DNA from: Halomonas binhaiensis
GTDB lineage: Bacteria; Pseudomonadota; Gammaproteobacteria; Pseudomonadales; Halomonadaceae
Assembly (NCBI RefSeq): GCF_008329985.2
Contig: NZ_CP038437.2
Location: forward strand, 124,001 to 188,000
DNA length: 64,000 bases
Direction of reading: 5' to 3'
The notes below the pieces were generated by a model. The model did not search any database and was not told the DNA's origin. It saw nothing but the letters and a program-made list of their open reading frames with translations. A program made the translations under genes and the position numbers. Position 1 is the stretch's first letter. Each line of letters opens with the position of its first letter. Shown piece by piece: positions 16,759 through 43,379 of the stretch.

Positions 16759-18456
16759 ATGAATTCAAGTGCTCAAAATATGAAAAACCGCACCGGCGCT
16801 CCTAACCATGAGGTAGAAATTGTGATTGTTGGGGCGGGACCGGTTGGCCTGACGTTAGCGAACTATCTCGGAATGCGTGGCGTCAAGGTCATGGTTATCG
16901 AGAAACTTGACCAGCTGATCGACTATCCACGCGCCATTGGTATCGACGATGAATCTCTGAGAACCATCCAGGCCATCGGCCTGATTGATGACGTCCTACC
17001 CCACACCACGCCCTACCATTCGATGCGTTTCCTTACGCCGAAAGGCCGTTGCTTCGCCGATATTCAGCCGATGACCGATGAGTTTGGCTGGTCACGGCGC
17101 AATGCCTTCATTCAGCCCCAGGTAGATGCAGTACTACATAGTGGCCTGAGTCGCTACTCGGACGTCGAGGTGTTGTTTTCCCGCAGCGTGAACGGCATCG
17201 AACAGGATGAGGACGGTGTCGTTGTCAGCGTAGAAAACGAGCAGAAGCCGGGAGAAACCGAGAGCGTTCGAGCCAAGTACCTGGTGGCTTGCGACGGCGG
17301 CAATAGCTATGTGCGTCGGAGTCTGGATATTGGCTTTTATGGCAAGACAGCGCCGAACCAATGGATTGTCGTGGATATTGCCAAGGATCCCTTGGCGATC
17401 CCCAACGTTTATCTTTGCGCGGACCCTGTCAGGCCCTACGTCTCCGCCGCTCTTCCCCACGCTACCCGCCGCTTCGAGTTCATGGTGATGCCGGGCGAAA
17501 CTCAGGAGCAACTGAGTCAGCCGGAAAATATGAAGCGGCTGCTGAGTAGCGTACTTCCCAATCCCGACAATGTGGAACTGATCCGAAGTCGTGTCTACAC
17601 CCACAACGCGCGCCTGGCGGAGAGGTTTCGGGACAAACGCATTCTGCTGGCGGGTGATGCCGCCCATATCATGCCGGTATGGCAGGGTCAGGGCTACAAC
17701 AGCGGCATGCGAGATGCTTCCAACCTGGCCTGGAAGCTGGCGCTGGTCGTCAAGGGAAAGGCATCCCCCCATCTGCTTGATACCTACGAAGACGAACGCC
17801 GTGATCACGCCAAGGCAATGATCGACCTATCGGTCATGGCGGGTCATGTCCTGGCTCCGCCGAGGCGCTGGCAGGGTACCTTGCGGGACGGCATTTCCTG
17901 GTTGCTGAACTATGTACCGCCGGTGAAACGCTACTTCCTGGAGATGCGCTTCAAGCCGATGCCGAAGTACGAAAGAGGAGCTCAGGTGGAGGTGTCCCCG
18001 AAACCGAAGGGGCCGACACCGGTGGGCAAAATGTTCATCCAGCCTCGAGTGGATACAGAGCATGGTGAGGAAATGCTGCTCGATGATGTGATCGGATGCA
18101 ATTTCGCCTTTATCGCCTGGGGGGCTGATCCCACTTGGGGGCTGAACGAGGAGCAAGTGCGCTCATGGCGAGAGCTCGGCACCACATTCATTCAGGTGGT
18201 ACCGAGCTTTCAGTTGAAAGCGCCAAGTGATGTGAGCGATGGGGTTATTCGTATAGGCGACAGCCAGGGACGCTTGAAAGAGTGGTTCGGGCGTTTCCCA
18301 GCGTCCATTGCCGTGTTGCGTCCGGACCGCTTCGTTGGCGCCGTTGCCATCCCCCAAACGATCGGAGAGGTCTCCGATCGCTATCTCTCGGTCCTGGGTG
18401 TTGAGGCCGGTGATGCCATCCCTTCACGCGAGAATATCAACCTGGAGGTGGCTTGA
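16759..18456 (+). CDS. mhpA: 3-(3-hydroxyphenyl)propionate / 3-hydroxycinnamate hydroxylase
   Basis: The 565-residue FAD-dependent aromatic monooxygenase is a PheA/TfdB-type flavoprotein. It has [13 protein letters not shown] at about 23-35 (the FAD GxGxxG), a DG motif ([12 protein letters not shown]) near 180 and a [19 protein letters not shown] stretch near 303-321. It hydroxylates 3-(3-hydroxyphenyl)propionate or 3-hydroxycinnamate to the 2,3-dihydroxy compound, the first step of the pathway. It is the first gene of the operon and ends one base before mhpB starts. The length fits the E. coli enzyme (554). Confidence 0.93.
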
Positions 18457-18457
18457 T

Positions 18458-19399
18458 ATGACGGCTTTGCTTCAGTGCCTTTCTCATACGCCGCTCATCG
18501 GCCACCTGGACCCAAGCCGAGAAGTACTTGACGAAGTGAACGACGTCATCGATTCGGCGGCCAGAAAAATCGCCGAATTCGATCCTGAACTGGTGATACT
18601 TTTCGCGCCGGATCACTACAACGGCTTCTTCTACGACATCATGCCGGCGTTCTGTGTCGGTACCCATGCCCATGCCATCGGGGATTTCGGCTCCGCAAAG
18701 GGTGATATTTACGTTCCTGAAGGACTGGCCGAAGGGCTCGCTATCCAGGCACTGGCCGACGGTGTGGATATTGCTGTTTCCCACAAGATGCAGGTGGATC
18801 ATGGCTTTGCCCAACCACTGCAGTTTCTGTTGGGAGGTCTGGATAAAACGCCGACCATCCCCGTTTTCATCAACTCGGTTGCTGTACCACTACCAGGATT
18901 CAAGCGTGCCCGTATTCTTGGTGAATCCGTAGGGCGATACGCCAAGTCACTGGGAAAGCGCACCCTCTTCATCGGTTCCGGTGGTCTGTCCCATCAGCCT
19001 CCCGTTCCAGAGCTCTCGACGGCCAGCAGCAACCTTCGTGATCGCTTGCTGGGAAGCGGGCGCGATCTGCCATTGGATGAGCGCGAAGCTCGTACTCAAC
19101 GTGTGATTGACGCCGCACGCAGGTTCGTTGACGACCAGAACTCGCTGCATCCGCTCAATCCTGAGTGGGACCAGAAGTTTCTTGAGCTGGTAGCGTCCGG
19201 CTGCATTGCCGACCTCGATGGAATGAGCAACGAAGCGCTTTCCGAGATGGCCGGAAAGTCTACCCACGAAGTGAAGACATGGGTCGCCGCCGGGGCGGCG
19301 CTATCGGCCTTTGGTCCCAGTCATGAAATGGATCGCTACTACCGCCCGATTCCTGAGTGGATTGCGGGCTTTGGTGCTCTCACTGTCAGAGCCGCGTGA
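18458..19399 (+). CDS. mhpB: 2,3-dihydroxyphenylpropionate 1,2-dioxygenase
   Basis: The 313-residue LigB-class extradiol dioxygenase has [17 protein letters not shown] near 45-60, carrying an Fe(II)-binding His, and a [14 protein letters not shown] stretch near 108 with the catalytic His. It cleaves the catechol ring next to the hydroxyls. The start at 18458 follows GGAGG by 8 bases and lies one base after the mhpA stop; a longer upstream frame would overlap mhpA and has no family match. The length equals E. coli MhpB (314). Confidence 0.93.
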
Positions 19400-19437
19400 C
19401 TTCATTGGTTACTCGATCAATTAGTTGGAGGTGCAGG

Positions 19438-20301
19438 ATGACGACACAAAAATGGACCGAAGAAGGGACCAGTCATTTCGTAAAGGTCCAAGAAGGTGAG
19501 CTGGAACTCAATATTCACTACAACGATGTGGGAGAGGGTGAAGAAACCATCGTCATGCTCCACGGCTCTGGGCCCGGTGCCAGCGGCTGGGCCAATTTCA
19601 ACCGTAATATCGAACCGTTTACCGATGCCGGCTACCGTGTCCTCCTCTTGGACTGCCCAGGATGGAGCAAGAGCGACTCCATTGTTTCCACGGGATCACG
19701 TTCGGACTTGAATGCCCGCGTGCTGAAGTCTGCCCTCGATGCCCTGGATATTCGCAAGGTTCACATCCTGGGCAATTCCATGGGTGGTCACAGCGCCGTG
19801 GCGTTCGCTCTGAGCTATCCCGATCGGGTGAGCAAACTCGTGCTGATGGGCGGAGGAACCGGTGGTGGAAGTATGTTCACACCGATGCCTGCCGAGGGGA
19901 TCAAGCGGCTGCAAAAACTTTATCGCGAGCCGACCCTCGATAATCTCAAAGAGATGATGGACATCTTCGTCTACGACACCAGCAGCCTCACCGAGGAGCT
20001 TTTCAAGACTCGCCTGGACAACATCCTGGCTCGCGAGGATCACCTGGTGAACTTCGTCAAGAGCAGCCAGGCCAATCCCAAACCCTTCCCGGATTTCGGC
20101 CCGCGCCTTGGCGAGATCGCCCATGAGAGCTTGATTATCTGGGGCCGGGATGACCGCTTTGTGCCCATGGATACGGGCTTAAGGCTTCTCAATGGACTTC
20201 AGCGAGCGGAGCTTCATATCTTCAACCGCTGCGGTCACTGGGCTCAATTCGAGCATGCGGACAAGTTCAATCGGTTGGTTCTGGACTTTCTTACGAACTG
20301 A
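19438..20301 (+). CDS. mhpC: 2-hydroxy-6-oxonona-2,4-dienedioate hydrolase
   Basis: The 287-residue alpha/beta hydrolase acts on a C-C bond. It has an oxyanion region [10 protein letters not shown] near 42, a nucleophile elbow GNSMGG near 111-116, an acid Asp in WGRDDRFVP near 235 and the catalytic His in [12 protein letters not shown] near 262. It splits the ring-fission product into 2-hydroxypentadienoate and succinate (or fumarate from the cinnamate branch). The start at 19438 has GGAGG 7 bases upstream. It sits third in the mhp operon. Confidence 0.93.
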
Positions 20302-32405: not shown

Positions 32406-35400
32406 TTATGACAGCTCCCCCTGGCCTTTGGCTTTTTCCAACCAAAGGGCGATGTCCTCGTCGCTGAACATATCGTCTCTGGTTCTTTCTCCGTAGCGCA
32501 TGGTGTCCAGCAAGTCCATGAAGCGTGGATGATCGAGCATGAACTGAGCCGCTTCCTGCTCTTGAGGACTCCAGTTACCTTCTTCACCCTTGGCGATCTT
32601 TTTCAGGTCATCAATACTGACGATCATATCTCCGCCAAATTGCTGCCCCCACGCTTCCCAGTTTCCATCAATGACATCGATGATATCGCGATTTTCTTCA
32701 TAGAAAGATGCTCCAAATACGCTAAGGGCATTGTTATGAAGCGCTTCATTGAGGCGGTTGCTCGATGAACCATTTTCCGATGGCGTCGAGGTAAAGTTTT
32801 CCCACTCGCTTTGCTGATATTTGAAAATACTTTCGTCCATAGGTGCATCGCGACCACCATAGTGATGAAAGGAGTAGCGTGCATATTCGACCTTGTCACC
32901 CCAGTCTGACTGCAGCAGGCCGATATTGGCCAGATCCTTGAACCACTGGCCTTCCTTGTCGGTGGCTTGCTGTTTTTTATCATGCTCGACAAAGAAGCTG
33001 ATGATGCTGCCAATCACCCCCAATACGGCAGTAAGGAGAAACAGCGGACCTGTAAGCGCGGCCCCGAGCGTACTCCCCATGAAGCCTGCTACACCGCTTG
33101 CACCTGCAATGAGACCGATGCCACCGGTAGCCACATCTATACCGCCCTGGGCCTTGGTGAGCTCGTGCCCCGACTGAATGCCATTGTTGATGGTAAAGGC
33201 CCCGAGGACGATGCCGGCGATGCCCCCTGCAATATCGGTAGCAGGTCCAATAACCTTCAGGGCAGAAGCGGCCAGCTTGGACGCAATGCCTGGTGCCACC
33301 TTGGTGCCGCCCTTGGCTTCAATGGATTCAGATATCAGGCTTTCGAGCTTATCTCCATTGGGGAAGTCCGAGTACACGGCTTCCTTCATGGAAGAATAAT
33401 TAGTTGAAAGCTTTTCATAGATGGCTTTTTTAATATCTTCTGATATCGGTGTTCCTGCAGCATTTTTAAACTTTCCAAGATCGATGCTCTTGTCCTTTCC
33501 CCATATTTCAGGGACGGATTTATCCAGACCAAGGAAATCTATCAGATTACCTTTTCCAAGGGTTTCTGCTACGGCACTACCGAGTTTGACGAAGTGTTCT
33601 GAACCACCGGCAAAGCTGAGGAAATCTCTTGCAATTCCGAGGCGCTCCAAGGGCTCGTCACCAAGCTGTCCACCCTTGCCAACCAACTGATAAATACCTG
33701 AGAAAAGGGAGACACCACTGCTGAGTGAGCCAAGAAGTCCCTTCTGGTTGAGAAAATCAAGAATCTTACCGATATTTCCACGCTCAGCCACAGAGAGATA
33801 TGTCCCGGAGGCGAGGGCCGTATTGATATCCGCCTGGCTGATCTTGCCGTGCCACTCAAACTTTTCTCCCAGCTCCTTGAGCGCCTTATCCACATCCCCT
33901 GCGGTCTTGTTGTTGCCAAGCGTCTCGTTGATGAATTTTTCATAGGTGGATTGAAGTCGGCGGGGCATATCAATCCCACCCTTGATCAATCCCTTGATGA
34001 GCAAGAACAGGTCCTTGGTGGCTAGGGCCTGATTCTCTTCTGTCACCTTGCTTGCGTCACCCATGATGGCATTAAGGTCGACGATCAATGCATCACGCTG
34101 GATCTTTTGTGCTGCACGAGTTGCGGCATCTTCATCGAATACCGCGAGGGAGCTGAGCACGTTGTTCAAGTCTTGCATTGCTGCTTCATCAAGCCCCTGG
34201 TTTTTCAGGGACTCAAGGTATTTTATATACTCTGGATTTTCGACGAGATCTCTCAGCTGGCTTTCAATCTGTTCCTTGTTATCAAGCTTGGTCAGGGCGC
34301 TGTTGATCTTTTCCTTGTAATCACTATGAATGGTTTCATTGCTGAACAAGGATGTCAGCTCTTCTACAAGCTTGGGGCCGTCGATGATGTCGTGCATGTC
34401 GGCGGCAGTCAGTTGGGTGGGGTCATCGTCGAACTTTCTGGTTGTTCCAACGACAAGGTCGCCAAATATCTTGTCAACCTTTTCTTCATAGCCGGTGATG
34501 GAGTGGCCATTCTGGTAGGCAGCTTGTGCTTCTATCGCAATGACCAATTTAGCGCGTGGATCATCCTTGTTGACCTTTCCGTCTTCAAGAAGCTGGCGAT
34601 AGTCGTCGAGCAAGGACTTTGTGGCTAACTCACCAACGCTCATGGTGGGAGAGCCATTGTCGTTTTCGTCGACATGGACGCCAGTATCCATATTCATGAC
34701 GTCTATGTCGCTTGGCTTGGGAAGGCTAAAGGTCTCACGGCCCGTGTCACGGGTGCTATCTATATTGAACCAACTATTCGACGTTTCGCTGACCTTGTCA
34801 TAGAGCTGTGGGCTGATTTCTTTGGAAACAATGAATTTTCCTTCGCTTGTTTCATAGCGAATCAAGCCATTACCCAGTTCTTCTACACTGCCAACAACCG
34901 TAATATCACCCTGCTCAAGGTAGTCATTGGGACCAGAAAGCTGGTAGCCATCCCTTATGCTGTCATTGATGATATCGTGAGTTTCTTTGGCTTGCTCTAC
35001 CTTGCCGAATAGTTCAGGAGTCAGGTCCTTTGACACAACTACCTTGTCACCACTCTCGGTCTGATAGGTGATTATATCGGCGCCGATTTCGAGCTGCTTG
35101 TACTGAGTAGGTCCTGGTGCCGTGTCATCATGACCTGCAAGCGTTGCCCCATTTCTCTCGGCCTGCTCAATTGCACCACGCTTGTCAGGGTTGGTGAGTA
35201 TTTCATGCATGCCGCTGAGGTAGGTGTATAGGTCGGGGTTGCTGTCATACGACACGACCACCTTGTCATCGCCATTCTGGTAGCGTATCAGACCCGGTCC
35301 CATTTCCCCTTCAGGTCCCACAGTAGTGCCCGCGACAGGAGGCCAGGAGGCTTCCTGGTCACCCAGCCGATAGCCTTGCTCTTCGCTTATATTGATTCCC

Positions 35401-35792
35401 TTCAATTGCGCGTAGTCATGACTGACCTTGGCATACAGCTCAGGGTTGTCGCTATCGCTGATAACGAATTTCTCACCTTTCTGATTTTCGTAGCGAATCA
35501 GTCCTGGTGCGACTTCATCAGGTGGGCCGATGTACAAGTAATCGATTAGCGCCTGTTCACCTTCAGCATCGGTTTCTGCATGCTGATAGCCTTCATTTTC
35601 GCTTTTTGAAATACCCTCTCGCAGCTTTTCATCGCTATCTGTCTCCTTCTCATGCGAGGCAGGATCAGGATCTTTCGCCGTCTTGTTTTTCAGACTCAAG
35701 TCATCAAGCGTCTTTTTCCATAGCGTCTGGTTGTCCGTATTATGCGGGCCTATTGGTGACTGGCTTGAGACTGAGTGATTTGGTGTTGTCAT
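32406..35792 (-). CDS. HrpF/NolX/HrpK-like putative type III translocon or effector protein
   Basis: The 1128-residue protein has no signal peptide and a polar, Ser/Asp/Lys-rich N-terminus. Four imperfect repeats follow, with cores of about 30 residues near 96-123, 166-192, 238-265 and 308-333 (pattern G-L-I-R-Y...G...V-S...P-x-L-Y), spaced about 70 apart. The middle is helical. Near 830-960 are Ala/Gly-rich hydrophobic helices (GIAGIVLGAFTI, LLTAVLGVIGSIISFFV). The C-terminus has ARYSFHHYGGRD, ESIFKYQQSEW and LDTMRYGER. N-terminal repeats plus C-terminal hydrophobic segments is the HrpF/NolX plan; those proteins are about 600-800 residues, so this is long. No secretion apparatus is in the window. 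An RTX-independent adhesin or toxin is the alternative. Confidence 0.5.
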   Translation of the reverse strand: MTTPNHSVSSQSPIGPHNTDNQTLWKKTLDDLSLKNKTAKDPDPASHEKETDSDEKLREGISKSENEGYQHAETDAEGEQALIDYLYIGPPDEVAPGLIRYENQKGEKFVISDSDNPELYAKVSHDYAQLKGINISEEQGYRLGDQEASWPPVAGTTVGPEGEMGPGLIRYQNGDDKVVVSYDSNPDLYTYLSGMHEILTNPDKRGAIEQAERNGATLAGHDDTAPGPTQYKQLEIGADIITYQTESGDKVVVSKDLTPELFGKVEQAKETHDIINDSIRDGYQLSGPNDYLEQGDITVVGSVEELGNGLIRYETSEGKFIVSKEISPQLYDKVSETSNSWFNIDSTRDTGRETFSLPKPSDIDVMNMDTGVHVDENDNGSPTMSVGELATKSLLDDYRQLLEDGKVNKDDPRAKLVIAIEAQAAYQNGHSITGYEEKVDKIFGDLVVGTTRKFDDDPTQLTAADMHDIIDGPKLVEELTSLFSNETIHSDYKEKINSALTKLDNKEQIESQLRDLVENPEYIKYLESLKNQGLDEAAMQDLNNVLSSLAVFDEDAATRAAQKIQRDALIVDLNAIMGDASKVTEENQALATKDLFLLIKGLIKGGIDMPRRLQSTYEKFINETLGNNKTAGDVDKALKELGEKFEWHGKISQADINTALASGTYLSVAERGNIGKILDFLNQKGLLGSLSSGVSLFSGIYQLVGKGGQLGDEPLERLGIARDFLSFAGGSEHFVKLGSAVAETLGKGNLIDFLGLDKSVPEIWGKDKSIDLGKFKNAAGTPISEDIKKAIYEKLSTNYSSMKEAVYSDFPNGDKLESLISESIEAKGGTKVAPGIASKLAASALKVIGPATDIAGGIAGIVLGAFTINNGIQSGHELTKAQGGIDVATGGIGLIAGASGVAGFMGSTLGAALTGPLFLLTAVLGVIGSIISFFVEHDKKQQATDKEGQWFKDLANIGLLQSDWGDKVEYARYSFHHYGGRDAPMDESIFKYQQSEWENFTSTPSENGSSSNRLNEALHNNALSVFGASFYEENRDIIDVIDGNWEAWGQQFGGDMIVSIDDLKKIAKGEEGNWSPQEQEAAQFMLDHPRFMDLLDTMRYGERTRDDMFSDEDIALWLEKAKGQGELS

Positions 35793-39023: not shown

Positions 39024-42000
39024 CTACAGGAAATTGATCCGCAGTTGTTCCATACCCCGAAAGACCATGCTGTCTCTCCACTGCACGCCCTCGGGGGCAA
39101 GGGCGAAATCGTGACGAATCAATGCCGGCAAGACACGGCGCAGCTCAAGGCGCGCCAGATAAGCCCCCAGGCAGTAGTGTGCGCCGTGAGCAAAAGCCAC
39201 GTGCTTGCCAGCGTTACGTCCGATATCCAGACGCTCAGGATTAGGGAACGCTTGCGGGTCCCGGTTCGCTGCCGAAAAAGAGAAGACTACGGTATCGCCG
39301 CGTTGAATCTGCTGGCCACCGAGTTCCACATCGTCGAGGGCATAACGCATCGAACAGCGCACTGCGCCGTCATAGCGCAGGAGTTCCTCTACCGCGTTCT
39401 CGGTGAGTTCGGGGTGTCTACGCCACCGTTCGAGCTGATCCGGGTTGCGCAGCAAGGCCAAGGTGCTGTTGCCGATCATGTCGGTGGTGGTTTCAAAGCC
39501 GACAGCAAAGATTATGGCATATTGCGCTATCAGCTCTTCGAGGCTTAGCCCCTGATCCAGCGCTGCGCAAGGGCTGAGAGTGTACTCATTGGCGACAGCA
39601 GAGGTTCGACGAAGGGTTTCCAGGTGTTCACGCAGGTAGCGGGTAAAATCTGCTGCACTTTGATCAATGCGGCGAGTGATCTCGTCGGACAGCAGAGGAT
39701 CGAAGCTCCGGATCAGATCCTGTGCCCAGGGCAGCAGCAAGGGAATATCTTCCTGTGGGAGACCGAGCATGCCCGAGATCACGGCCACCGGAAGAGGGAG
39801 AGCGAGGTCTCTGACAAGGTCAGGGGCAGGGTGCGCTTTCAGATTGCCAATGAGCTCCTCTGCACGTGCGTCGATGAAATGGGCCCAATGCTGCACGGCC
39901 TCTGGGGTGAACAGTGGTGTGAAGACACGCCTCAAGTACTGGTGTCGCGGCGGATCGAGAAATAGCATGAAGTTGTTGAGCAGCGAGTTGAAGGCCTTGT
40001 CCTGCTGCTGCCGACTTGAGGCACTGAGCATAGGAAGAGAGATATTGCTGTTCTTGGCGAAGGTGTGCTCGATACCTTGCAGGCTGCGAGGGTCGACGCT
40101 GAAGCGCTTGTCACGCATGCCGGCTGAAACATCCGCATGACGGGTAATCCACCATCTCGACATGATGTCCCTGATGGCGGGGGTCTGTGTCCGGACCTGA
40201 CGGAGGATGGGATAAGGGTCTTCGATATGGACAGGGTGGTATGGGTCAAGCGTCAGCGCCTGCGCGGAAATGTCCAGGGGGCGCCCCTCGCGATGAGGGA
40301 TGTGAGCCGCTGCCAGACGCTCCAGGCCGAGATGCATGCGAGGGCGATCACTGATGGCTTCCTGCATGGCAGTGACGAGTTCCGTGGCGTGGGATGGCAG
40401 CACCATGGTGAAGTGGTCGCCAGGCACCTTGACGACCTTGAGTGATGGACAGAACGGCTCCCAACCGAGCGTCTTATTGCCACACCAGAGCATCAACTTG
40501 CGGGCAGGGTGCAGCACTTGTTCGGGGAAGCTGGACCGAGCACGAAATAGCGTCACAGGCCCGGCATACGGCCGTGGCCGATAGCTTTCCATGGCCGCGT
40601 AGCTGGCCTTATAGATCGCCGCCAGCCGGGTGGCCACCGTTGTGCTTTCCACACCCAGTTCGCGAGCGAGGATTTCGCGCTGCTGCTCCAGGGACAGCGT
40701 GTCGAGTTTCTCAAGCCCCGGTACTGGGCTTGCATCCCCGGTGAAACGCCGGTTCACGTGGCAGAGCTCGAACAGCGCCATCACCTCATCGCTGGCATCT
40801 GAGGTTTCGTCGTTCTCCGAGGGCGTGAGTGTATCCAGCAACAAGACATGCACGGACGCCCCCTGTTCACTGAGTCGCTGCGCCATTTCGTAGGCGACCA
40901 GGCCACCGAAGGAGTGCCCTGCGAGCGTGTAGGGCCCTTCGGGCTGAATGGCCTTCATCTCATCGATATAGCGCGACGCCAGCTCCTCGACCGACCCCAG
41001 CGGGTGCTCCAGACCATCGGCACCTGGCGCCTGAAAGGCGACGAGTGGACGGGATGTCCCAAACGCAGGAGCCAGCGACGACAAATAGGCTGGCATGCCC
41101 GTCAGCCCGGGGACACAAAACAGAGGTGCGTCCACTTTCCAGTCACTCAAGGCCACCGCGCATCCGCCAGGGAGTGTCGCTACGCAGGTAGCGTCTGAGG
41201 CCGCATGTAGCGGTGCCGTGGCGTCATCCTGCCACTGCCAGCCCTTGTTCTTCTTATTCCCATGTATGCCCGTCTGCTCCACGCGGGCGATCAGATCGCC
41301 AAGCGTTGTTGAACTGAGCAGTGCCATGAGTGGCAGGGACACGCCAAATTGCTGCTCGATATGTACAGCAAGGTCCATGCCGGCCAGGGAATCCAGACCA
41401 ACCTGGCTGAGGCGGGCATCAGGCGCAAGGAGTGCATGATCGCCATTCCCTGTCAGTCGTGAGATGGCCTGGGTGATGTCATCGCGCAGGAGCTGCCGCC
41501 GTGCGTCGGCATCCAGTGTGTGCCAGCCGGTGTGGTGGCTCTCGCTTGCAGGTGCGGTCGTTGAGGTGGCAGTGGAAATTGACGCGGAAGCTGTTTCCGT
41601 GGGCGTTACCAAGGTGGCACCAAGGTTCCAGGTGAACAGCGTCTCGAGCTTATCCTTGAGATAGCGTCGCTTGCAGGCCTGGCGGGCGAGTTTGCCACTG
41701 GATGTCTTGTCGATGCTGCCGGCTTTGATCAGCACAATGTCGTGGACGAGCAGCGCATGTTGTTCGCTCAAGGCGCCACGAATGGCCTCGGCCATCGCAG
41801 CGAAGACCAGCTGATCCTGCTTCTGGGGTAGATGGGAGGCGATTTCGGCGATGATGACCAGGCGCTGCTCTGCGTCCTCCTGCTCGCAGGTGAAGGCGAT
41901 CACGGCCCCGGGGCGGATGCCGGAATGGCTGCGTTCAGCACTGAGTTCAAGATCCTGCGGATAGTGATTCTTGCCGCGAAGGATGATCAGGTCCTTGATA

Positions 42001-43379
42001 CGCCCGGTGATGTAGAGGTGGCCAGACTCGAGGCAACCCAGGTCGCCGGTGCGTAGCCAGGGAACGGCCTCATGCTGGTCCAGACAGGCCTTGAAGGTGG
42101 CTTCGGTGTCATCGTCACGCTGCCAGTAGCCGTGCGCGACGTTCGAACCGCGGACCCACACTTCCCCCACTTCACCGGGGGCGACGAGCTGGCACGTCTG
42201 GGGATCGACGATCTCCACCTGGACACTGGGCAAGGGCCTTCCGGAGGATACCAGCGGCACGGCCTCGTGATCCGAGGGGGGTACCATCATAATGCGATTG
42301 TCGGCCAGCGCCTGCTTGTCCACGAACAGGCTGCGCGGGGTTTCACCCTCCGGTCCACCACTCACCGCGACCACGGTCTCTGCCAGGCCGTAGCCGGGAA
42401 CCATGCTTGAGGATGCCAGCCCTTGTGGCTCGAAGGCCTCGATGAAGCGCTCGATGGATTCGTGGCGCACGGGTTCCGCGCCAACAATGCAGTACTTGAG
42501 GCAGGAGAGGTCGAGCGCTTCACGCTCGCAGCCCACGATCTTGCGCACGGCGATATCAAGGGCAAAATTGGGAACAAAGGTGTTGGTGGCCCGATAGCGC
42601 GATATTGTTTCCAGCCATGAAGCCGGGCGACGCAGGAAGTCCAGCGGTGACATCAGCACTGAACTGCCACCGACGAGAGCTGGAAGGAAGACGCCTCCCA
42701 TGAGGCCAAGGTCGTGATAGGTGGGCAGCCAGGAAACGAAGACGCTATCAGCGCCCTGGCACGCTCTGGACTCAATCATCTCCATATTGGCCAGAATGTT
42801 GTGATGGCTGACCATGACCCCCTTGGGTATCGAGGTCGACCCTGATGTGTATTGAATCAAGGCCAGATCCTGAGGCGTGAGTTCAGGATCCCGATAGGCA
42901 GGAATGACTGGGTTCTGGCATAGCTCATCCACTGCCAGCCATGGCAGCTGAGCAAGGTCCGGCGCGAAGACCAGCAGGGGCTCCGCCATACCCTTGAGCA
43001 TGCTGTTGGTGAGAACGATGGCAGGTGCTGCATCGGTCGCGATGGCCTTGAGCCGCGCAAGTGTTCGCTCGACCCGGGAAGGCTCTGGAGGATAGGCGGG
43101 GACAGCGATGGCTCCAGCATAGAGACAACCATGGAGGGCGACGGTGAAGTCGAGGCCGGGCCAGAACAGCAGCAGTACCCGTGGCTGCTCCTGGCCTCCT
43201 GCGTGCGTTCGGATCTCTTCTGCAATGAGGCGAGCGCGACTGTCGAGCTGCGCATAGCTGAGATGCTCACTCCTCTGGCCAGCATCATCAAGAAAGGTAT
43301 AGGCCGTCTTGTCCGGGCTTTGTTCTGCATGTGTGCGTACACAAAGATTCAAGGTCGGATAGCGCGTGTCCATGTGCAT
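39024..43379 (-). CDS. fatty acyl-AMP ligase - carrier protein - thioesterase - cytochrome P450 fusion
   Basis: One 1451-residue chain holds four domains. Residues 1-590 are a fatty acyl-AMP ligase: YTSGSTSIPKGVMVSH at 177-192, VPGYGLAET at 327-335, TGDLG at 444 and Lys563 in SSGK. Residues 620-705 are a carrier protein with the phosphopantetheine Ser664 (GLDSLAG). Residues 750-1010 are a type I thioesterase with Ser823 (GHSFGG), Asp849 and His989 (GDHF). Residues 1030-1451 are a bacterial P450: I-helix GFETTTD near 1294, ExxR at 1332-1335 and heme Cys1403 (HGAHYCLG). The plan reads load a fatty acid, hold it on the carrier, oxidise it, release it. No membrane anchor or redox partner is adjacent. 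The ATG at 43373 is an alternative start. Confidence 0.93.
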   Translation of the reverse strand: MHMDTRYPTLNLCVRTHAEQSPDKTAYTFLDDAGQRSEHLSYAQLDSRARLIAEEIRTHAGGQEQPRVLLLFWPGLDFTVALHGCLYAGAIAVPAYPPEPSRVERTLARLKAIATDAAPAIVLTNSMLKGMAEPLLVFAPDLAQLPWLAVDELCQNPVIPAYRDPELTPQDLALIQYTSGSTSIPKGVMVSHHNILANMEMIESRACQGADSVFVSWLPTYHDLGLMGGVFLPALVGGSSVLMSPLDFLRRPASWLETISRYRATNTFVPNFALDIAVRKIVGCEREALDLSCLKYCIVGAEPVRHESIERFIEAFEPQGLASSSMVPGYGLAETVVAVSGGPEGETPRSLFVDKQALADNRIMMVPPSDHEAVPLVSSGRPLPSVQVEIVDPQTCQLVAPGEVGEVWVRGSNVAHGYWQRDDDTEATFKACLDQHEAVPWLRTGDLGCLESGHLYITGRIKDLIILRGKNHYPQDLELSAERSHSGIRPGAVIAFTCEQEDAEQRLVIIAEIASHLPQKQDQLVFAAMAEAIRGALSEQHALLVHDIVLIKAGSIDKTSSGKLARQACKRRYLKDKLETLFTWNLGATLVTPTETASASISTATSTTAPASESHHTGWHTLDADARRQLLRDDITQAISRLTGNGDHALLAPDARLSQVGLDSLAGMDLAVHIEQQFGVSLPLMALLSSTTLGDLIARVEQTGIHGNKKNKGWQWQDDATAPLHAASDATCVATLPGGCAVALSDWKVDAPLFCVPGLTGMPAYLSSLAPAFGTSRPLVAFQAPGADGLEHPLGSVEELASRYIDEMKAIQPEGPYTLAGHSFGGLVAYEMAQRLSEQGASVHVLLLDTLTPSENDETSDASDEVMALFELCHVNRRFTGDASPVPGLEKLDTLSLEQQREILARELGVESTTVATRLAAIYKASYAAMESYRPRPYAGPVTLFRARSSFPEQVLHPARKLMLWCGNKTLGWEPFCPSLKVVKVPGDHFTMVLPSHATELVTAMQEAISDRPRMHLGLERLAAAHIPHREGRPLDISAQALTLDPYHPVHIEDPYPILRQVRTQTPAIRDIMSRWWITRHADVSAGMRDKRFSVDPRSLQGIEHTFAKNSNISLPMLSASSRQQQDKAFNSLLNNFMLFLDPPRHQYLRRVFTPLFTPEAVQHWAHFIDARAEELIGNLKAHPAPDLVRDLALPLPVAVISGMLGLPQEDIPLLLPWAQDLIRSFDPLLSDEITRRIDQSAADFTRYLREHLETLRRTSAVANEYTLSPCAALDQGLSLEELIAQYAIIFAVGFETTTDMIGNSTLALLRNPDQLERWRRHPELTENAVEELLRYDGAVRCSMRYALDDVELGGQQIQRGDTVVFSFSAANRDPQAFPNPERLDIGRNAGKHVAFAHGAHYCLGAYLARLELRRVLPALIRHDFALAPEGVQWRDSMVFRGMEQLRINFL

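Follow-up and report, generated by a model that had tools for sequence, protein, structure and literature searches.

Can one bacterial protein load a fatty acid, oxidize it while it is held on a carrier, and release the product? This question is raised by a gene on the minus strand of a 64,000-nucleotide stretch of the Halomonas binhaiensis genome (contig NZ_CP038437.2, positions 124,001 to 188,000), which we call the window. An earlier reading of the letters alone, made without database searches (hereafter, the original prediction), proposed that this gene encodes a fatty acyl-AMP ligase (FAAL), an acyl carrier protein (ACP), a thioesterase (TE) and a cytochrome P450 in a single chain.

The FAAL-ACP-TE-P450 protein is real, conserved and, as far as we searched, uncharacterized. 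Its parts are ordinary; their packing and the repeated loss of the loading domain are unusual. Oxidation of carrier-tethered chains by P450s is already known, and here it would occur within one chain. New are at least 20 clusters of FAAL-less relatives that keep the carrier serine, and repeated loss or gain of the FAAL. With moderate confidence, we propose that the protein is a self-contained, carrier-tethered fatty-acid monooxygenase.

One reading frame with four domains

The open reading frame (ORF) at 39024-43379 is a single intact frame of 1451 codons. A Pfam search, a check that had been suggested with the original prediction, returned AMP-binding, AMP-dom_DIP2-like, PP-binding, Thioesterase and p450 matches, so all four predicted domains lie in one open frame. 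On inspection of the sequence, an AAGGA motif directly adjoins the first ATG and precedes the second by six bases; the public record for this protein (P0001) has 1449 amino acids. Because of this spacing and this length, translation probably starts at the second ATG, at 43373. Residue numbers throughout follow the 1451-amino-acid frame, and residue conservation refers to an alignment of 46 proteins (the query, 25 other fused proteins and 20 FAAL-less ones). The gene and its predicted parts are as follows.

39024..43373, minus strand: FAAL-ACP-TE-P450 gene, 1449 amino acids from the probable start at the second ATG (ORF, length of P0001, AAGGA spacing)
42123..43337, minus strand: FAAL N-terminal domain, residues 15-419 (Pfam PF00501, AMP-binding, 245 bits; alignment to a solved FAAL-type chain)
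41640..41993, minus strand: FAAL C-terminal part, residues 463-580, with predicted catalytic Lys563 (Pfam PF23024, AMP-dom_DIP2-like)
41280..41480, minus strand: acyl carrier protein domain, residues 634-700 (Pfam PF00550, PP-binding)
41388..41390, minus strand: codon of Ser664, predicted phosphopantetheine attachment site in GLDSL (Ser in 46/46 aligned proteins)
40365..41126, minus strand: type I thioesterase, residues 752-1005, predicted triad S823/D849/H989 (Pfam PF00975, alignment)
39036..40250, minus strand: cytochrome P450 domain, residues 1044-1448 (Pfam p450 match at 1133-1428)
39171..39173, minus strand: codon of Cys1403, predicted heme thiolate ligand (Cys in 46/46 aligned proteins)

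The key residues that had been named from the sequence (K563, S664, S823, D849, H989 and C1403) all stand at their assigned places in the alignment. At least 26 other clusters have the four domains fused, which excludes chance or frame error as the source of the arrangement. Identities to the query among the 25 fused proteins compared are 46-82% in the FAAL, 42-79% in the TE and 40-81% in the P450. Thus, although a Pseudomonadaceae-type copy is read as two overlapping frames and FAAL-less forms exist, the probability that separate genes were merged by a sequencing or frame error is virtually negligible, and we regard this explanation as in effect already refuted. The two frames of the Pseudomonadaceae-type copy (L032:11393-15699; 957 and 519 amino acids) could reflect either a frameshift or an assembly error, and a Tn3-type transposase lies about 6 kb away. 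A foreign origin of the window gene by composition was rejected, because it has a guanine-cytosine (GC) content of 0.604 and, at 0.191, the smallest codon distance of 13 window genes.

A ligase of the FAAL type

NCBIfam FAAL models score up to 436 bits on the ligase part. Its best solved relative is the 7r7e chain ('Polyketide synthase'), which aligns over residues 18-584 with short gaps. Between query residues 324 and 424, where we place the FAAL-specific insertion by assumption, the two chains differ by one-residue gaps only, in an alignment that holds no insertion-less coenzyme A (CoA) ligase. Of 27 fused proteins, 25 have a motif spacing of 113 across this region; P0009 has 126 and P0026 has 114.

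According to the available excerpts of PMC8460268, FAALs are recognized by two features, a FAAL-specific helix and bulky side chains that close the CoA pocket (W224, M231 and F279 in EcFAAL). The query has residues at matching intervals, namely W217, F272 and, at the Met place, L224; its helix segment reads PLDFLRR at about residues 245-251. The CoA-blocking Phe is kept in 26/26 aligned fused proteins; the Met place holds Leu in 22 of these, Phe in two and Met in two. The YTSGST..PKG motif is found in 25/26 (P0020 is truncated at that site), and RTGD or RSGD together with the SSGK lysine in 26/26. Judged by these scores, the 7r7e alignment, the blocking residues and the conserved motifs, the ligase is of the FAAL type, with CoA-excluding features, as originally predicted. 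The 7r7e chain is at most a possible match to RsFAAL of PMC8460268: the main text of that paper does not contain the entry code, and the residue A269 quoted in it does not fit.

Carrier, thioesterase and P450 domains

Conservation extends through the rest of the chain. The TE Ser and His and the P450 ExxR motif are found in 46/46 aligned proteins, and the TE Asp lies within one alignment column in all 46. The Asp ahead of the ACP serine is present in 43/46, having been lost in P0040, P0042 and P0043. PDB matches of the TE domain are thioesterases of nonribosomal peptide synthetases (NRPS), Pks13 and fatty-acid synthase.

NCBIfam P450 models all score far below cut-off on the P450 domain. By sequence, its closest solved relative is 9w6b, a 437-residue P450 chain (alignment over 405 residues, E 2e-106), which is nearer still to the P450 part of the Pseudomonas aeruginosa ACP-TE-P450 protein P0042 (664 bits). 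In the predicted model, the best structural matches are P450 BioI with bound acyl-ACP, tied in Z score with CalO2 and StaP. The likeness to BioI-type P450s suggested at the outset is thus compatible with the modeled fold, with no clear lead of BioI over CalO2 and StaP. BioI (CYP107H1; PDB 3ejb, 3ejd and 3eje) acts in Bacillus biotin synthesis and was solved with acyl-ACP; it is a stand-alone P450, with no FAAL or TE in its chain. The CYP107-like matches also make OleT-type (CYP152) decarboxylation, one of the options first offered, look unlikely.

The likeness to BioI raises the possibility that the P450 cuts the chain internally, as BioI does, to give a short dicarboxylic acid resembling pimelate instead of a hydroxy acid. 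Such a reaction would suit the structural matches to BioI with acyl-ACP and the finding that BioI is, after 9w6b, the best solved relative of P0042 by sequence, but the Z tie, the tenth rank of BioI by sequence for the query and the lack of biotin genes (unlike BioI) among 12 neighboring proteins scanned lead us to consider it quite unlikely. These 12 were taken from 51 window ORFs of at least 200 amino acids, spurious ORFs among them.

An intact I-helix Glu-Thr pair is seen in 42/46 aligned proteins, among them the query. Variation of I-helix motifs between members, and an extra flavin amine-oxidase-like domain in the related chains P0087 and P0090, would be consistent with desaturation, epoxidation or another oxidation, or with an unusual acid in place of a common fatty acid, and we know of no way to read the substrate of a FAAL from its sequence. 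With the Glu-Thr pair intact in the query and a ligase of fatty-acid type, we rate such alternatives as very unlikely.

Proposed reaction scheme

In the scheme that we favor, carrier-tethered oxidation within one chain, the FAAL would adenylate a free fatty acid with ATP and load the acyl group onto the neighboring ACP, on a phosphopantetheine arm that a separate transferase would attach. The ACP, on flexible linkers, would deliver the chain to the P450, which would draw electrons from a putative host ferredoxin and reductase and oxidize the tethered chain, most likely by in-chain hydroxylation like BioI. The TE would then release the product by hydrolysis as a free hydroxylated acid, although a lactone is possible. 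We favor in-chain hydroxylation for two reasons: the BioI match includes structures with acyl-ACP, and the query retains the acid-alcohol pair. The product is thus most likely an in-chain hydroxylated free fatty acid, although we hold this exact product less firmly than the overall scheme. Of the load-oxidize-release scheme in the original prediction, the required domains and residues are present; we infer the reaction steps, product, chain length, oxidation position, redox partner and biological role.

Three loci of the phosphopantetheinyl transferase family, with frames of 145, 213 and 232 amino acids, occur in the genome and suggest one AcpS and two Sfp-type enzymes. The FAAL-ACP-TE-P450 gene is the sole P450 locus in this genome. 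No polyketide synthase (PKS), NRPS or desaturase was found among the 12 neighbors scanned or among 19 around relatives, which agrees with the predicted absence of PKS and NRPS genes nearby and makes it credible that the protein is a complete pathway in itself.

Several observations weigh against the scheme. The top NCBIfam model on the ligase is that of an NRPS/PKS subfamily (479 bits, residues 9-592), and NF005850, named long-chain-fatty-acid--CoA ligase, reaches 343 bits (NF004837, also named for a CoA ligase, scores 187 bits). Every NCBIfam model on the ligase is far under its own cut-off, and therefore no named equivalog applies. BioI is tied in Z with P450s that act on other substrates and, as noted, ranks low by sequence. 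The Glu-Thr pair is absent in P0014, P0021, P0023 and P0024 (4/46), and therefore not all members need be ordinary monooxygenases. The modeled TE-P450 linker has a predicted local distance difference test score (pLDDT) of only 51-74. The genome has ten Fer2 loci, none of them of the usual small-ferredoxin size (the smallest frame has 164 amino acids). With at least 20 FAAL-less clusters, the family can evidently do without the FAAL step, and our searches found no relative whose reaction has been measured.

Instead of releasing a free acid, the TE might hand the oxidized chain to an acceptor (an amine, an alcohol or another carrier), as a modified building block for a lipid or lipopeptide made elsewhere in the genome. 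Type I TEs can cyclize or transfer, many of the FAAL-bearing proteins from P0044 on among the matches listed are NRPS/PKS by their Pfam lists, and chains might be handed on between the fused and FAAL-less copies of a Lysobacter genome, which lie about 11 kb apart. However, neither the neighbors scanned here nor those around relatives include an NRPS or PKS, and the genome has no second FAAL at E 1e-25. We consider such a transfer rather unlikely.

If carrier-tethered oxidation followed by release is correct, one protein would convert an ordinary fatty acid into an acid hydroxylated at a selected position. It would then serve as a compact model of how a P450 recognizes a carrier-bound chain in cis, and as a ready biocatalyst.

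A family with and without the FAAL

Family searches scored the 8000 candidates with most shared words, and cluster counts are therefore lower bounds; the main search covered the best 120 of 412 matches. At least 27 clusters are fused FAAL-TE-P450 proteins (P0001-P0026, which include that of the query, and P0126). The linear order is conserved: 25 fused clusters are colinear with the query in the alignment, and P0126 was judged from its list of domains and its FAAL motifs. In P0026, Pfam detects no carrier domain, yet the carrier serine is kept; P0020 and P0025 have short N-termini. At least 20 further clusters are FAAL-less ACP-TE-P450 proteins of 799-858 amino acids (P0027-P0043, P0046, P0121 and P0122). 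The carrier serine is retained in these (20 aligned), including P0042 and P0043, which have no Pfam carrier match. P0125 (TE-P450, 680 amino acids) is a possible fragment and was left out of the counts. The domain order, first thought rare, thus recurs in many homologues, none of which was found to be characterized.

Named sources of fused members are Pseudomonas, Serratia odorifera, a Collimonas metagenome-assembled genome and Lysobacter; those of FAAL-less members are Halomonas elongata, H. eurihalina, Microbulbifer, Dyella, P. aeruginosa, Burkholderia sola and Lysobacter. The FAAL-less protein of another genome of the window's genus (G051) starts like that of H. eurihalina. The distribution is sparse. 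With the TE-P450 part as query, matches were found in 4/275 genomes of the window's family, all four in its genus, in 1/390 genomes in the order and in 1/369 in the class, the last two being the window's own genome. P0017 matched 0/25 and 1/398 genomes in the group taken for Pseudomonas, and P0038 matched 1/237 in the family taken for Xanthomonadaceae, with two copies in that genome. An exact-peptide scan of genome contigs returned 10 loci, none matching past residue 861; in the best (L001), a 2272-amino-acid frame matches query residues 14-701. Among plasmids, 94 records match the TE-P450 query partly at 1e-40, and none covers 80% in one place. None of 12 pattern matches in viral contigs is a relative, and PADLOC gave no match.

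A quick LG+G4 tree of the ACP-TE-P450 part (49 rows, long branches flagged) requires four changes to explain the FAAL-less rows. A second quick LG+G4 tree of TE-P450 only (42 rows; the outgroup and the long-branch fused rows P0022, P0023, P0025 and P0026 left out) again requires four, and a single FAAL-less clade is rejected on it (log-likelihood 359 lower, approximately unbiased p-AU 0.0009). This test was made after the first tree had been seen, with the FAAL-less group defined by domain content. The FAAL has been lost (or gained) at least four times, and the simplest reading is an ancestral fusion followed by several losses. Among fused proteins, rank correlations of distances are 0.876 for FAAL-P450, 0.722 for FAAL-TE and 0.680 for TE-P450 (24/26 rows, P0020 and P0025 left out; 0/2000 permutations as high for each pair). 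Thus, the domains of fused proteins share much of one history.

At E 1e-25, none of the three genomes of the window's genus that carry the FAAL-less form shows a FAAL (0/3), in a search for which the query's genome was positive. The ACP there would therefore be charged by another enzyme or from fatty-acid synthesis. By eye, no peptide motif common across lineages replaces the FAAL as a docking element. FAAL-less relatives with a carrier are a natural experiment on how the carrier is loaded.

A bolder reading, which we put forward tentatively and judge more doubtful than probable, is that the family represents a new class of one-gene lipid pathways, lone genes in distant Proteobacteria that make a free oxidized fatty acid without a cluster. 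The product might be a signal, an antibiotic or a membrane component. The loader would have been shed repeatedly, with descendants fed in trans; in genomes where no FAAL was detected, the ACP might be charged by fatty-acid synthesis, by an acyl-ACP synthetase or from acyl-CoA, the last hinted at by an acyl-CoA-binding domain fused to some members. Since the genes seem to stand alone, one gene should be enough to identify the product.

The acyl-CoA-binding domain, of N-terminal type, occurs in four fused members (P0005, at residues 6-80, P0006, P0007 and P0015), and is an odd partner for a CoA-rejecting type of ligase. The same parts are also found reshuffled, as P450-amine oxidase-FAAL-ACP-TE (P0087), amine oxidase-ACP-TE-P450 (P0090) and P450-C-A-T-TE (P0115). 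Residues 1-390 of P0090 look catalase-like by eye, and Pfam has no match there at 1e-5. The two Lysobacter copies (L037, G1594 C44) share 42% identity and are not close relatives.

Comparison with known systems

Solved FAALs (the 7r7e chain, FadD32, FadD23 and FadD28) are similar along the FAAL part of the query. They feed PKS or NRPS enzymes. Unlike in these FAALs, the carrier of the query shares its chain with a TE and a P450, and unlike a PKS/NRPS starter module, the chain ends in TE-P450, with neither enzyme among the scanned neighbors.

The nikkomycin proteins NikP1, NikQ and NikP2 share the logic proposed here: a carrier takes up an acid, the P450 NikQ hydroxylates it there, and a thioesterase sets it free. 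That system differs in using separate proteins and an amino acid, within a larger antibiotic pathway. Release by the thioesterase NikP2 is described in the available excerpt of PMC4147253. In bacterial polyyne clusters, a FAAL, an ACP and a thioesterase act on a fatty acid; as excerpted in PMC8406139, these are mostly separate genes with three desaturases, and a P450 occurs only in a subset of actinobacterial clusters. In contrast, no desaturase was found among the neighbors scanned around the query or its relatives.

By its description, Pseudomonas 'NRPS 10' has the same apparent order in one protein. In a single catalogue line of PMC8719888, it is listed as A-T-TE-P450 and classed as an NRPS without function, with A-domain specificity not predictable. 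A literature search for FAAL/carrier/thioesterase/P450 fusions, with most subscription papers and all bioRxiv preprints outside its scope, found this one relevant line and no characterized relative.

Genomic context

A yccS-type transporter gene lies 284 bases downstream of the FAAL-ACP-TE-P450 gene, and had been proposed as an exporter of the product. This role was not borne out: when window ORF proteins were compared with eight stretches around relatives at 1e-8, yccS had no match, and it was rejected as a partner. Farther downstream are a 1128-amino-acid protein without a family, a LysR regulator, a TauD-type dioxygenase and a BCCT transporter. Upstream are a formate-tetrahydrofolate (THF) ligase, a DJ-1/AraC regulator, a DAO+GCV_T protein, a second GCV_T protein, an MTHFR-like protein, a Na+/H+ antiporter and a P-type ATPase. 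The region 25755-52084 is rich in putative betaine and one-carbon genes (BCCT, TauD-type, formate-THF ligase, DJ-1/AraC, two GCV_T and MTHFR-like), and we read the surroundings as a one-carbon and betaine neighborhood, not a biosynthetic cluster.

The nine neighbors in a Halomonas-type genome (L017) are a lactate permease, a pyridine-nucleotide oxidoreductase with VTT, an alpha/beta hydrolase, GATase, AIRS, RadA-like and NlpE-domain proteins and two without a match. The six in Lysobacter are an aquaporin, a tyrosinase domain, GGDEF/EAL, an alpha/beta hydrolase, GNAT and LysR. The Pseudomonadaceae-type copy has four, the Tn3-type transposase and three without a match.

The gene of the 1128-amino-acid protein (32406-35792, minus strand) has a GC content of 0.50, versus about 0.60 around it, and encodes imperfect GLIRY...VVVS-type repeats. 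It has no Pfam or NCBIfam match, and BLAST with this protein and with a 1860-amino-acid frame near the Pseudomonadaceae-type copy gave nothing better than E 1.2.

The 1e-8 comparison did match the FAAL-ACP-TE-P450 region (partly in antisense frames) and, in L015, a group of LysR, TauD and 193-amino-acid genes. Of two weaker cross-matches, one is between a LysR-type protein and both L038 and L015, the other between the 19357-20301 protein and an alpha/beta hydrolase region of L038. The L015 group (18234-20000) consists of likely orthologues of the window genes (80-90% identity), rearranged. It lies about 5 kb from a FAAL-less ACP-TE-P450 gene in another genome of the genus, which may be coincidence.

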